A DNA stretch of 43,855 nucleotides from positions 1 to 43,855 of the forward strand of contig CAJJAS010000097.1 of the NCBI GenBank assembly GCA_905182245.1. Direction: 5' to 3'. The stretch comes from a gamma proteobacterium HTCC2207 (GTDB lineage Bacteria > Pseudomonadota > Gammaproteobacteria > Pseudomonadales > Porticoccaceae). A model generated the notes under the pieces. The model saw only the letters and a program-made list of their open reading frames with translations, was not told the DNA's origin and made no database searches. This document shows, one piece after another, positions 514 through 6,561 of the stretch (the stretch's first letter is position 1; every line of letters starts with the position of its first letter). The translations under genes and the position numbers were made by a program.

Positions 514-634
514 GAGGTTCTCCAGGATCAATAAAATCGGCGGCATTATACCGTAAATTACGGGTTGCTACAGCGCAAAAAATCGTTAGAATAACGGACT
601 TTTAAGGCAATACTGCTTGGACGCCATCTTTCTA

Positions 635-904
635 ATGAAACGACTCAATACATTATGCGCCATCGCGCTCTGTTTGATTATCGGCCTCGCGTCGGTAACT
701 GCGTCTGCTCATACTCATAATGATCATCAGGAAAGTAGCTGTTCAGTCAGTGTATTACAGCATTCCTCAGCAGCGGTTGCGGCTGAAGCCACCAAAACTT
801 ACATCACCAGAGTCACAACCCCGAAAACCATCCCTAGTGTACAGGCTGTTGGCAGCCGCATCAGAAGTTGCCAGCTCGCCAGAGCCCCACCCTTTAACCT
901 CTAA
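635..904 (+). CDS. Small secreted His-containing protein (89 aa), putative accessory of the adjacent TonB receptor; DUF2946-like tail (tentative)
   Basis: ATG at 635 (the track start at 617 is TTG). Signal-peptide-like MKRLNTLCAIALCLIIGLASVTASA, then HTHNDHQESSC; C-terminal RAPPF. Lies directly upstream of the TonB receptor on the same strand. Confidence 0.6.
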   Translation: MKRLNTLCAIALCLIIGLASVTASAHTHNDHQESSCSVSVLQHSSAAVAAEATKTYITRVTTPKTIPSVQAVGSRIRSCQLARAPPFNL

Positions 905-980
905 ATAATTTGCATCCCCCCGTTGGAACAAATTTGTGCCGGTCATTCGGCGCACATATTATTTTTTAGAGGAATACCCT

Positions 981-3206
981 ATGAAAAAGCTAAATACTGT
1001 TAAGTTGCCTTTGGCAGCTTGCCTTGTAAGTTTGTCCTGCAGTGCTTTCACTCAGGAAATGGAAGAAGTTATTGTTACATCATCATTAATTGATGCCTCA
1101 TCGGACGCAATCTCAAACCCACTGCATGTTATCAATGGTGAGTCTATTGCTAGCGATGCAAGCCAAAGCATTGGTGCCAGTATCGATGGTCTGGTGGGCG
1201 TATCCTCCAGTGATTATGGCGCCGCTGTTGGTCAGCCTATTATCAGAGGTATGTCGGGAAGCCGGGTAAAGATCCTCAATAACGGTGTAGTGGTTAGAGA
1301 TGTTTCAGGTTTGGGACCTGATCATGCTAATGATGTGGATTTAAATAATATCCAGCAAATCGAAATAGTCAGAGGGCCATCGTCCTTGCTCTATTCCAAT
1401 GGAACCATCGGCGGCATAGTTAATGTGGTTGACAACACCATAGCCAGAAAAGACTTCGAAGAGTCAACATTCAGGCTGGGGCTAGAGGTTCAGACAGTCA
1501 ATGATGGCGACTCACATGACTTCTCTTATCAAAACAATATCGGTGGTTTTAATGTCAGTGCTGCCTACAAAGACTCTAAGTTTGGTGACTATGACATTCC
1601 AAATGGTGCGGTCATTCATCATGAGGAAGAGCATGAAGGCGAAGAGGAAGGGGACCACGAAGGTGAAGAGCATGAGGAAGATATGGGTTACTTACCCAAT
1701 TCTGATGCTGGGTCTACTGCGCAAAGATTAGGCATTTCCAAAGCCGGAGATTGGGGATATTTTGGCGTATCTATTAGCGATACCGAAAATCTTTACGGTA
1801 TTCCTTTTCATGGCGACAGTCATGAAGAGCATGAAGATGAAGATGGAGATGACCATGCAGACGAAGATGAGCATGAGGGCGAAGACGAGCATGAAGGCGA
1901 ACGCATCTTCTCGAAAACTGAGTCTAATGTAATCAATGTAGATGGCTCTTACGCTGTGGGTAATAGCTGGTTAACAAAAATCGATTATCGATTTAGAGAT
2001 TCCGATTATTCTCACACTGAACAGCATGCCGAAGAAGAAGCACACGAAGGTGAAGAGGATGGTGACGATCTTCATGAAGAGGGGCCAACAACCTTCACCA
2101 ATAATGCCAAAGAATATGGTGCCATTTTTGATTTAGGTAATGATTCGCTATCACAAAAAGTTGCAGTAAATTATGTGGTTGAGGATATTTCTGTTATTGG
2201 CGATGAGGCCTTTATAAATCCAACAGAAAGTAAAGAATTGACCCTAGGCTACTATCTGAGCAAAGACCTCGACCTATTTCATGTCGACCTTGGTATTAGA
2301 TATGATCAAATTTCCAGAAATGGGTCTGTCAGCCATGAAGAAGAACATGATGAAGGTCACGCAGACGAGCATGATGATGACCATGAGGCAGAAATAGAGT
2401 TTTTTGATCGAGATATCGACACTACCAGCTATGCACTAACTCTAAGCAATGATATCAATGAGTTTTTAGAGGTGAGTTTAGGACTTTCCTCCGTCGAAAG
2501 AGCACCTTCGGCGGTAGAGCTGTTAATGAATGGTCCTCATCTGGCAACAGGTAGAGTAGAAGTAGGTAATTTCAACCTGAAGCCTGAAAGATCAAACAAT
2601 ATCGATCTGAGCTTTAATTTTAGCAATGATGGACTTTATGCTGGCCTGACGTTCTTCCAAAATAATGTGGATAATTATATCTATCTTATGGATGAGACTG
2701 AAGAGGATCATTCAGATCATGGAGATGACGACGATCATGATGGTTTAACCCTTGCCAATTATCTTCAGCAGAACGCTGAATTTAAAGGTTATGAACTTGA
2801 AATAGGCAAGACATTTGACTTAGCTCGTGGTGCACTGACGCTGGCATTCGGAAGAGATTCCGTTTCAGGAGAGTTTACAGACGGACATAATATCCCACGT
2901 ATGACCCCGGAAAGAGACTTGTACAAAGTCGTTTACGTGGAAGATGGGCTTACGTTTGTACTGTCTCTCAAGGATGTATCAGCTCAGAATGATACGGCAG
3001 AAAATGAAACTGGCACCGATGGATTTCAAATCTTGAACCTGAATCTATCAAAAACCATTGAGACCAGTCCAGGGCATGAGCTAGTTTTGTCAGTGTTCGG
3101 TAAAAATCTGCTGGATGAGGCGGCTAGAAATCACAGTTCATTTGTTAAGGATGAGATACCCATGGCAGGCAAAAATCTGGGTATGCGGGCGAGTTACTCG
3201 TTTTAA
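981..3206 (+). CDS. TonB-dependent outer-membrane receptor with multiple His/Asp/Glu-rich extracellular loops (ZnuD-like metal receptor)
   Basis: Signal peptide MKKLNTVKLPLAACLVSLSCSAFTQ, TonB-box-like MEEVIVTSS, plug motifs (GVSSSDYGAAVGQPIIRGMSGSRVKILNNGV, IEIVRGPSSLLYSNGTIGGIVNVVD), C-terminal aromatic SYSF. ATG at 981 preferred over 936. Confidence 0.9.
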   Translation: MKKLNTVKLPLAACLVSLSCSAFTQEMEEVIVTSSLIDASSDAISNPLHVINGESIASDASQSIGASIDGLVGVSSSDYGAAVGQPIIRGMSGSRVKILNNGVVVRDVSGLGPDHANDVDLNNIQQIEIVRGPSSLLYSNGTIGGIVNVVDNTIARKDFEESTFRLGLEVQTVNDGDSHDFSYQNNIGGFNVSAAYKDSKFGDYDIPNGAVIHHEEEHEGEEEGDHEGEEHEEDMGYLPNSDAGSTAQRLGISKAGDWGYFGVSISDTENLYGIPFHGDSHEEHEDEDGDDHADEDEHEGEDEHEGERIFSKTESNVINVDGSYAVGNSWLTKIDYRFRDSDYSHTEQHAEEEAHEGEEDGDDLHEEGPTTFTNNAKEYGAIFDLGNDSLSQKVAVNYVVEDISVIGDEAFINPTESKELTLGYYLSKDLDLFHVDLGIRYDQISRNGSVSHEEEHDEGHADEHDDDHEAEIEFFDRDIDTTSYALTLSNDINEFLEVSLGLSSVERAPSAVELLMNGPHLATGRVEVGNFNLKPERSNNIDLSFNFSNDGLYAGLTFFQNNVDNYIYLMDETEEDHSDHGDDDDHDGLTLANYLQQNAEFKGYELEIGKTFDLARGALTLAFGRDSVSGEFTDGHNIPRMTPERDLYKVVYVEDGLTFVLSLKDVSAQNDTAENETGTDGFQILNLNLSKTIETSPGHELVLSVFGKNLLDEAARNHSSFVKDEIPMAGKNLGMRASYSF

Positions 3207-3318: not shown

Positions 3319-5196
3319 TTGGGGAAGATATTTAAATTTTGGTTAATCAGTGTCGTATTTGCTGTCACTGTTATGGTTGCTGGGGTCATTTATTTTGTTA
3401 CGGTACTTGACCCCAACGACTACAAATCTGAAATTGAAACTATGGCCGCTAGGCAGGGTATTACACTGTCAATTAATGGCAACCTTGCATGGCAGTTTTT
3501 CCCCAAGCCCGGCATCAGCATTAGTAATATTGATTTTGTCACTCAGAGGCAGGATTTAGGCCCCGCGATAGAAAAACTGTCGGGACAGATCGGTCTAGCC
3601 GCTGTATCTGCCGAATGGAGCGCATTACTAAATACTCAGACTGCAGCAAGCCAACCCCTTAAATTGCTTAGTTCAATTAAGCTATCGGGCGCTCGAACAC
3701 TGGTTACACCTTACGCTGGTCTTCCATTTCAGCTTAATGATATTGACCTCAGTGTCGGTAAAATCTCTCTGCAGGCTCAGCCCTTTCCTGTATCTGTCTC
3801 GATGACTGCACTGGATGGCATTACCATTGACGCCAAGTTTGTCACCCGTATTGACAGCAATACAAGCACGGTAACCCTCAGTAGCCTAGACCTCAATATT
3901 GATCAGATAGCGATAAAGGGGGACATCAGCTCCGACCTTGTCAGCTTACGCACCCAAGGAAATCTGCAGGTCAGCCCATTTAATCTAAAACGCCAGCTAG
4001 AACAGTTTCAAACGCGTTTGCCGATGTTTACAGTGCCTAAAATGGCCAGCCAAACTGCGTTATCTGACCTTAGTGTCGATGGAAATTTCGACTTCAACCC
4101 TACCGCAATCTCTCAATCCAGTAATCTGATAAGACTGGATGGTCAGCTGTTTGAGGTCGATATCAATATTGATCAGAGTAGCGATAAGCTTACATTGAGC
4201 ATCCGTGGCGACACATTCAAACTGGCTGACTATATTGCCATTCCAGATAATCTAGCCAGCAAAGACAGCGCCGCTATTTTTGCACCACTGGCCCTACCCT
4301 TTGTGCTGTGGCATGGACAGAGCCAGATGGAAGTTGCCGTTGGCACCATCCAGCTGGATGACTTTGCCGTCACCAACTTCTACAGCAATATTTTTGGTAA
4401 TCAACGAGTATTGCGGGTCACCGCTCTGAATGGGGACATGTTTGGCGGTCAGGCTAATGTGATCGCCAAGTTCGACATGCGCTCAAAAACACCTAGCTTT
4501 AATATTCAGCCATCCCTGAGCAATATTAATCTTGGCAGCGCACTACCTGCCCTAACAGATACCTCCGATCTCACCGGGCGTTTAAACCTGCAGGGCAATA
4601 TTCAGGGCACGGGCAATAACAGAAAGACAATTCTTAGTTCACTCACCGGTGCTGGTGAGTTTGAAATTACCGCACCCAGCTACTCCGAAACCAATATAGA
4701 AGAGACCTTCTGCAATGCAGCCGCCCTGTTTGGTAGCAGCAATACGACTAACCCGTCCTGGCCCAAGGGCACTCAGCTAGACAACCTAGAGGGCAAGTTT
4801 CAGTTCACTAACGGAAAACTCTTAGTCAGCGACTATACAACCGGCACCGGCAATCTAACCCTCGATGGCAATGCCACCGTGCATATGCTCGACAAAAAAT
4901 ATGTCCTAAAAGCCAACGTACTTTTAAGTAGCGCGACTACCAGCGTCAATGGCTGCTCAGTCAATCGTCAGTTACAAAACCGAGCCATACCCTTTATCTG
5001 TAAAGGCCGGTTTAGCCAGAGTACCAACAGCAAGGCCAAACCAGCCTTTTGTAAACCTGATGAGCGAGTGCTCAAAGATCTGCTAAAAAATACCGCCTTG
5101 AAAAAGCTCGGCGATCAGCTGTTTAATAGCCCCGATGAGGAACCAAACCCCCTGCAAAATCTGTTTAAAGAATTACTCAAAAAGAATCTCAACTAG
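3319..5196 (+). CDS. AsmA family protein
   Basis: N-terminal TM segment, AsmA-type N-terminus (LDPNDYKSEIETMAARQGITLSINGNLAWQFFPKPGISISNI), C-terminal GTGNLTLDGNATV. TTG start. Confidence 0.85.
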   Translation: MGKIFKFWLISVVFAVTVMVAGVIYFVTVLDPNDYKSEIETMAARQGITLSINGNLAWQFFPKPGISISNIDFVTQRQDLGPAIEKLSGQIGLAAVSAEWSALLNTQTAASQPLKLLSSIKLSGARTLVTPYAGLPFQLNDIDLSVGKISLQAQPFPVSVSMTALDGITIDAKFVTRIDSNTSTVTLSSLDLNIDQIAIKGDISSDLVSLRTQGNLQVSPFNLKRQLEQFQTRLPMFTVPKMASQTALSDLSVDGNFDFNPTAISQSSNLIRLDGQLFEVDINIDQSSDKLTLSIRGDTFKLADYIAIPDNLASKDSAAIFAPLALPFVLWHGQSQMEVAVGTIQLDDFAVTNFYSNIFGNQRVLRVTALNGDMFGGQANVIAKFDMRSKTPSFNIQPSLSNINLGSALPALTDTSDLTGRLNLQGNIQGTGNNRKTILSSLTGAGEFEITAPSYSETNIEETFCNAAALFGSSNTTNPSWPKGTQLDNLEGKFQFTNGKLLVSDYTTGTGNLTLDGNATVHMLDKKYVLKANVLLSSATTSVNGCSVNRQLQNRAIPFICKGRFSQSTNSKAKPAFCKPDERVLKDLLKNTALKKLGDQLFNSPDEEPNPLQNLFKELLKKNLN

Positions 5197-5199
5197 AAC

Positions 5200-6264
5200 A
5201 TGACACCAGCCAAATTCCAGCAATCCGTACTCAAGTGGTTTGATCAATATGGTCGAACCAACCTACCCTGGCAGCAGGATATCAATGCCTACAGAGTCTG
5301 GGTCTCCGAAATTATGCTACAGCAGACCCAGGTCAGCACCGTTATCCCCTACTTCCAGCGCTTTATGGCGAGTTACCCAACGGTACAGTTACTCGCCGCA
5401 GCCCCGTTAGACGAGGTGCTGCATCATTGGACTGGCCTCGGATACTATGCTCGAGCCCGCAACCTTCATAAGACATCGCAGCAGGTTGCCAATGTGCTCG
5501 GTGGCGAGTTCCCCGATAACGTGGAACAGCTATGCGAGTTGCCCGGCATAGGCCGATCCACTGCCGGCGCCATTAGCTCTATCGCCTTTAAAAATCAGGC
5601 AACTATCTTAGATGGTAATGTTAAGCGCGTTCTAGCAAGGTTTGGGGCTATCGAAGGCTGGCCGGGTAAAAGTGACGTGGTACAAAAGCTCTGGATAGCT
5701 GCAGAGACCTATACGCCCTACAAACGTATTGCCGACTACACTCAGGCAATGATGGATTTAGGCGCCACCCTATGCACCCGATCATCGCCTGATTGCGATC
5801 ACTGCCCACTGGCCAAAAGTTGCAAAGCCTATGCCCAGGGAAATCCGCAAGACTATCCGGGTAAAAAACCCAAGAAAAAGCTTCCTCTGCGAACCACCTG
5901 CTTTCTGATGATCCGTAACGCAGAAGGTGAACTGTTACTGCAGCAGAACCCACCTATGGGCCTCTGGGGCGGCCTTTGGGTATTCCCTCAGTGCGAGACA
6001 GAGCAAGAATTAGAAGAAACCTGTATGAAGCTAGGCATAGAGCCTAATAGCCAACGGGTACTCGCAGTTAAACGTCATACCTTTAGTCACTTTCACCTCG
6101 ACTACCAGCCTGTTGAAATTGCCGTCACCGGTCAGGGCAATACCGCACTGCAAGTGGCCGACGCCCAGAATCAGGTCTGGTATAACCCACAGAAACCACT
6201 ATCATTAGGTATGCCAGCTCCTATTAAAGCGCTGCTGTTACAGGCTCAAAAACGAGCAATATAA
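5200..6264 (+). CDS. mutY: A/G-specific adenine glycosylase MutY
   Basis: [45 protein letters not shown], Cys cluster [18 protein letters not shown]-terminal NUDIX-like domain. Confidence 0.97.
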
Positions 6265-6288
6265 GTAAATATCACACAGAGGTACGTT

Positions 6289-6561
6289 ATGGCGCGCATG
6301 ATTTTATGTCGCAAGCTCAAAAAAGAACTCCCGGGGCTAGATATGCCCCCCTTCCCTGGCCCCAAAGGCGAGGAAATTTTCAATAATATCTCCAAAGAAG
6401 CCTGGGCAGAGTGGATGACCCACCAAACCACGCTAATCAATGAAATGCGCCTAAATATGATGGATTTGACCGCTCGCACCTATCTCTCGGAACAACGAGA
6501 AAAATTCTTTAACGGCGAAGACGTCGATCAGGCTGAAGGATACGTCCCGCCTACGGAATAA
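6289..6561 (+). CDS. yggX: Fe(2+)-trafficking protein YggX
   Basis: [59 protein letters not shown] is typical YggX. Confidence 0.96.

Follow-up and report, generated by a model that had tools for sequence, protein, structure and literature searches.

A candidate zinc-responsive leader peptide ahead of a ZnuD-type receptor with five His/Asp/Glu-rich loops

In the window analysed here, a 43,855-nt stretch of gammaproteobacterial DNA, a short ORF with a C-terminal RAPP motif precedes a ZnuD-type TonB-dependent receptor gene. We consider it probable that the two form a zinc-uptake unit, in which a metal-sensing leader gates a five-loop receptor. The material behind this reading is the loops and their topology in a structural model, the conserved zinc ligands, the conservation and linkage of the leader, and the RNA pairing between leader and receptor. 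More tentatively, at slightly below even confidence, we propose that a zinc-sensing arrest leader distinct from CruR controls many gammaproteobacterial ZnuD-type receptors through an anti-Shine-Dalgarno (anti-SD) stem opened by a stalled ribosome, and that it replaces Zur. If this is true, the literature searched contains no earlier case of a nascent chain that senses zinc.

The receptor and its zinc site

The receptor most likely starts at ATG 981, with the Shine-Dalgarno (SD) sequence AGAGGA 7 nt ahead, and ends at 3206; the mechanical ORF list starts it at GTG 936 instead (table 1). The preliminary description had likened it to ZnuD-type zinc receptors, an assignment borne out by the best PDB match, the best fold match and four conserved zinc ligands. 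Pfam recognizes a plug and a barrel, ZnuD of Neisseria meningitidis is the best PDB sequence match (phmmer 1.8e-47; profile 1e-120), and ZnuD entries are the top four Foldseek matches of the receptor model. The best NCBIfam model is ZnuD NF038289, with a score of 236.7 bits. Since this is below the curated cut-off of 950 bits of what is a narrow model of zinc-piracy ZnuD, we file the receptor as ZnuD-type and not as that equivalog. The copper receptor model TIGR01778 (OprC-type) did not match the receptor (45 bits of 472).

Table 1. Features of the leader-receptor locus (window coordinates).
Feature	Position	Strand	Description	Basis
Promoter-like TTGCTA-N16-TAGAAT	565-592	+	ahead of leader ORF; putative	sequence, similar blocks in upstream regions of aligned relatives
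Leader ORF	635-904	+	89 aa; hydrophobic N-terminal export signal, HTHNDH, single Cys36, C-terminal ARAPPFNL	sequence, dN/dS, relatives
RAPP codons AGA GCC CCA CCC	881-892	+	proposed stall site, CCA in P site	sequence; CruR toeprint in PMC12992588
Anti-Shine-Dalgarno CCTCTAAA	898-905	+	last sense codon and stop of leader	MFE fold, RNAalifold, pair counts, duplex test
Hairpin TGTGCCGG-TCAT-TCGGCGCA	935-954	+	within anti-SD/SD stem	MFE, RNAalifold, two pairs changed on both sides
Receptor Shine-Dalgarno region TTTAGAGGA	965-973	+	pairs with 898-905	MFE, RNAalifold, pair counts
Receptor ORF	981-3206	+	741 aa, ZnuD-type TonB-dependent receptor; Plug 46-146, barrel	Pfam, NCBIfam, PDB, fold
D114-H115	1320-1325	+	plug apex; equivalents of ZnuD Asp-99, His-100	alignment
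Run 1	1617-1682	+	predicted extracellular loop L2	sequence, model
Run 2	1809-1901	+	predicted extracellular loop L3, place of ZnuD His/acidic metal loop	sequence, model
Run 3	2013-2084	+	predicted extracellular loop L4, holds E347	sequence, model
E347	2019-2021	+	inside run 3; equivalent of ZnuD Glu-340	alignment
Run 4	2334-2393	+	predicted extracellular loop L6	sequence, model
H520	2538-2540	+	equivalent of ZnuD His-499	alignment
Run 5	2700-2744	+	predicted extracellular loop L8	sequence, model

The zinc ligands of ZnuD, Asp-99, His-100, Glu-340 and His-499 (PMC4557270), align to D114, H115, E347 and H520 of the receptor when a 14-residue numbering offset is allowed for. A 12-sequence alignment shows no variation at these four positions, and 128/130 family members have the set DHEH, the family being the ZnuD-type receptors with upstream sequence from a profile search of the order together with earlier loci. 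Plain MAFFT misplaced E347 in many relatives, and the position was counted as Y343 plus four residues; a Glu stands there in the same number of members (128/130), and the other two have no letter. The mature receptor contains no Cys, both Cys residues falling inside the signal peptide. It is almost certainly a zinc importer, with zinc binding and uptake predicted from the conserved ligand site.

ZnuD (4RDR, 4RDT, 4RVW; PMC4557270) and the window receptor share the plug and barrel fold, the four ligands, a YGxPxHxH-like start of the L3 metal loop and His/acidic clusters in L3. They differ in that ZnuD has its clusters in one loop, whereas the window receptor has five His/acidic loops, lies behind an arrest-type leader and has no Zur box. 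Identity in the fold alignment is about 24%.

The leader and the metal it may sense

The leader, which the preliminary description had missed, is the most informative part of the locus; it lies outside the receptor coordinates, separated from the receptor by a 76-nt spacer. Against all relatives except the nearest, its dN is about 0.2-0.3 and its dS about 0.7 to 2.6, rates from which we judge that it evolves as a coding sequence. We called a leader wherever an upstream ORF carries a RAPP-type motif at most 14 residues from its C-terminus. Such a leader precedes 89/130 ZnuD-type receptors, compared with 0/130 in the reverse-strand control, with the motif reading RAPP in 68, RGPP in 18, RDPP in two and QAPP in one. 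Every one of the 89 has a hydrophobic N-terminal stretch, a simple count that we used as the measure of an export signal, and a Cys 25-49 residues ahead of the motif. HxH occurs in 74 and CxxC in 58 of the 89, and the distance from CxxC to the Arg of the motif is 45-49 residues in 58/58 CxxC leaders; the corresponding distance from Cys to the Arg of RAPP in the window is 47. The window leader's metal motif (HxHxxH...C) reads AHTHNDHQESSC and has CSVS in place of CxxC, lacking the second Cys, as do most leaders of its clade. The leader is linked to the ZnuD-type receptor: 0/8 other TonB receptors of the window genome have one, and among 30 TonB receptors sampled in three relatives it was found only at the ZnuD-type one (four of the 30 have little upstream sequence). 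A distant receptor on a Bacteroidota-labelled contig (L051) also follows an ORF ending in RGPP, which could reflect a binning error or mean that such leaders are widespread.

Earlier work has described RAPP leaders upstream of TonB receptors, and one of them, CruR, is characterized for copper. CruR-BfrG of Bordetella pertussis (PMC9426467) shares with the window locus an exported leader, a TonB receptor downstream and a metal-ligand site 45-49 residues ahead of a C-terminal RAPP (Cys 90-93, RAPP 139-142). CruR, however, works on copper through CxxC and Rho termination and has a 162-nt spacer, whereas the window leader has one Cys with HxHxxH, the shorter spacer and an anti-SD stem. The RAPP/RGPP arrest peptides of PMC10951233 and PMC12992588 are likewise exported, have a near-C-terminal RAPP and lie ahead of TonB receptors among other genes. 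According to PMC12992588, RAPP and RGPP are the forms that arrest more readily, and toeprinting places the P and A sites of the ribosome stalled on CruR over the two Pro codons; the term zinc does not occur in that paper, and its available part does not single out ZnuD receptors. We predict ribosome arrest at the window RAPP. A Pfam search for DUF2946 gave no match in the window leader and none in its own genome, and weak ones in 3/17 relatives (best E 0.007). The window leader probably works like CruR, but we do not file it as DUF2946. We found no paper linking zinc to RAPP leaders in the largely open-access literature searched, and within it nothing on a pairing of RAPP leaders with ZnuD, on an anti-SD stem at the window position or on alternation with Zur.

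The copper precedent could extend to the window, with the leader sensing copper as CruR does and the receptor importing copper despite its ZnuD-like site. CruR responds to copper, a homologue precedes the copper-regulated oprC (PMC9426467), and the leaders that keep CxxC are the majority. Genomes holding two family members, such as G144, with a leader on only one, could mean that the two carry different metals. We nevertheless regard copper import as unlikely. The zinc-ligand set is identical with and without a leader, the receptor scores 237 bits with the NCBIfam ZnuD model against 45 with the copper receptor model, and Cys is absent from the mature protein, whose loops are made of His, Asp and Glu. 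Moreover, most leaders of the window clade no longer have the second Cys of CxxC, and in CruR a Cys-to-Ser change in this motif strongly impaired the copper response (PMC9426467). The mechanism is weakest on the question of which metal is sensed: the receptor site and the loss of CxxC in the clade would favour zinc, while precedent would favour copper.

Bacterial control of zinc uptake is usually explained by the Zur repressor. In the window genome, zur, znuC and znuB share one locus with a znuA-like start that runs divergently, and between znuA and zur stands a perfect 13-mer Zur-type palindrome (all in L074 1930-2261); a second Zur-like palindrome, with one mismatch, occurs elsewhere in the genome (L077, G000:C89:46356). 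No Zur box was found upstream of the window receptor, although the genome has zur and the box at znuA/zur. Counting Zur-like boxes at most 350 nt from the receptor, we found them at 2/89 receptors with a leader and 12/41 without (Fisher p 1.5e-5), compared with none and one, respectively, for a reversed control motif. When relatedness was removed by taking independent pairs, the exclusion kept the same direction and was not significant. Receptors with leaders and receptors with Zur boxes adjoin in the tree (L128, for instance, beside L121 and L146), and some genomes hold one member with and one without a leader (in G144 the Zur box is on the second). Taken with the zinc ligands common to the leader and leaderless classes, the box counts and tree neighbours suggest that leader and Zur are alternative controls of one kind of transporter. 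The locus suggests that many ZnuD-type receptors, including those of the abundant ocean SAR92 and SAR86 groups, are controlled at translation and not by Zur. At two loci (L152 and L155) a RAPP leader and a Zur-like box occur together, with the box downstream of the leader and ahead of the receptor.

The RNA stem and the proposed switch

In the MFE fold, a stem formed by 898-905 and 965-972 (CCTCTAAA with TTTAGAGG) encloses two hairpins (z -2.79). RNAalifold on 11 relatives recovered the identical stem together with the hairpins, with both partners of a pair changed in four cases. One of these is a C-G to U-A replacement in the SD stem, seen in L017 and L018, and both partners have changed at two pairs of the long hairpin. 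Pairing is retained among distant relatives despite divergent sequences, as with CTTCCTGTC and GACAGGAA in L060 or CTCCTGT and ACAGGAG in L048. Over the 89 loci, the mean duplex energy with the SD is strongest at the RAPP codons, reaching -11.0 kcal/mol against a baseline of about -6.7. This peak is not merely a product of C-rich Pro codons, because 629 other Pro-Pro windows average only -6.9. The anti-SD excess persists after thinning at 60% receptor identity (42 loci, p 6e-6), and at 45% identity it is suggestive only (15 loci, p 0.08). Simulating a stalled ribosome by masking its footprint raised SD accessibility in 52/75 loci and lowered it in 2/75, the gain being modest (0.32 to 0.40) in several sequences of the window clade, including the window itself. 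An Rfam search with the intergenic RNA gave no match.

These features could also belong to a locus without arrest control, in which the small ORF would simply encode an exported protein that binds metal, and the RNA stem would act as a terminator or a signal for processing. The ORF is indeed a conserved coding sequence with an export signal and metal ligands, and a T run follows the hairpin at 935-954. Such an account, however, leaves unexplained the C-terminal RAPP/RGPP of nearly all leaders, the fixed 45-49 spacing and the anti-SD pairing centred on the RAPP codons, and we consider it improbable.

Four elements of the proposed switch are inferred: that the ribosome stalls at the window RAPP, that metal releases the stall, which way the response runs, and that the metal is zinc. 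When metal is scarce, the ribosome on the exported leader would stall at RAPP and cover the anti-SD at 898-905, leaving the receptor start site free, and receptor would be made. At the stall, the His/Cys cluster would be about 47-57 residues from the P site, just outside the ribosome, and the signal peptide could already engage the translocon. The leader may thus sense metal outside the cytoplasm while being made. Zinc binding to the HxHxxH...C that has just emerged would relieve the arrest; the ribosome would leave, the stem would re-form and receptor synthesis would stop. CutF-CutO of Rhodobacter capsulatus (PMC9973294) shares an exported nascent sensor, a C-terminal Pro-rich motif and a stem-loop hiding the downstream SD, but its target is a multicopper oxidase, copper promotes expression and the Pro-rich motif is unlike that of CruR. 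There the direction is reported to be opposite, with metal promoting stalling (PMC9973294), which shows that the sign of the metal response can be reversed. RAPP leaders have so far been tied to copper and protein export, and a zinc version would widen nascent-chain sensing.

The five loops

All five His/Asp/Glu runs that the preliminary description had placed in one receptor match letter for letter in the 741-aa ORF, and 23/31 receptor histidines fall inside them. When 15-residue stretches with 11 or more H/D/E, two or more of them H, are counted, the receptor has five separate runs, while 5000 shuffles of the same protein gave a mean of 0.018 and a maximum of one. None of the eight other TonB receptors of the genome has such runs. 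An AlphaFold2 model built with 12 sequences (mean pLDDT 71.8, pTM 0.75) has 22 barrel strands; together with the TonB-dependent plug and the His/acidic cluster in L3 (run 2), this barrel places the receptor with the ZnuD type. Segments with pLDDT below 50 (206-237, 275-306, 352-366, 454-469 and 574-587) coincide with the five runs. Structure prediction thus agrees with an extracellular position, all five runs lying disordered on outward turns, with the outside assigned by strand parity in the 22-strand model. That the runs form a metal-concentrating surface is plausible and agrees with the ZnuD literature. The five disordered loops would catch metal outside the cell by weak binding, like an antenna, and hand it to the buried site formed by D114, H115, E347 and H520; TonB action would then free it from there into the periplasm.

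Comparison of orthologues revealed the expected loop-length variation, in the form of changes by whole repeat units around a conserved barrel. Among relatives at 63% identity or more, L3 varies from 23 to 62 residues, and His/Asp/Glu/Gly/Ala still dominate the loops of the clade. The near-repeat character that had been attributed to the runs holds at the protein level and is weak at the DNA level in the window copy: there is an 18-nt imperfect tandem array at 1847-1901 (3.1 copies, 83% matches) besides weaker arrays, and synonymous-codon shuffling of this copy gave no repeat excess (p 0.20-0.67). The window copy carries only eroded repeats. Expansion by slippage, also proposed earlier, is seen in relatives and is not demonstrable in the window copy. 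In L028, L3 contains GGAGATGAGCAT in seven exact copies and L6 repeats GACGATCAC; L2 of L015 has the repeat GAAGAAGATCAC. Single arrays in relatives exceed synonymous shuffling (p 0.0005 to 0.005), while the total over all relatives' loops is weak (12/158 below p 0.05 versus about eight by chance). Whole-unit length changes and strong single arrays, set against this weak total, make slippage a good account of the family that is unproven for the window copy.

The same variability might mean that the loops are tolerated low-complexity sequence, or variable phage decoys grown by slippage, and not metal antennae. Close relatives differ widely in loop length and some carry tandem arrays, as this would have it; yet the composition is kept in the clade despite the length changes, the genome's other receptors have no such runs, and in the ZnuD crystal structure the corresponding loop binds metal (PMC4557270). 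We give this explanation little credence. Five rich loops occur in 27/130 receptors, 26 of them in the window's clade (SAR92, SAR86 and allies) and one, L088, outside it. Such receptors form an extreme natural series in which the metal load of the loops could be related to zinc capture at ocean concentrations. His-rich loops bind Ni and Co too, but import of nickel or cobalt instead of zinc is very improbable given the conserved four-ligand zinc site and the Zur boxes at several family members.

Four relatives have the receptor frame broken in the loops. We do not claim phase variation, because in two of these relatives the breaks are assembly gaps and in the other two they may be sequencing errors. 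The gaps (L058 and L059) are runs of N exactly inside His/acidic loops and suggest even longer repeat arrays there; the others (L070 in G017 and L036 in G047) are small out-of-frame breaks inside repeat loops, which sequencing error would explain as well as slippage or phase variation. Downstream of the receptor, at 3319-6561, the window encodes what by eye resemble an AsmA-like protein, MutY and YggX, ordinary gammaproteobacterial neighbours.
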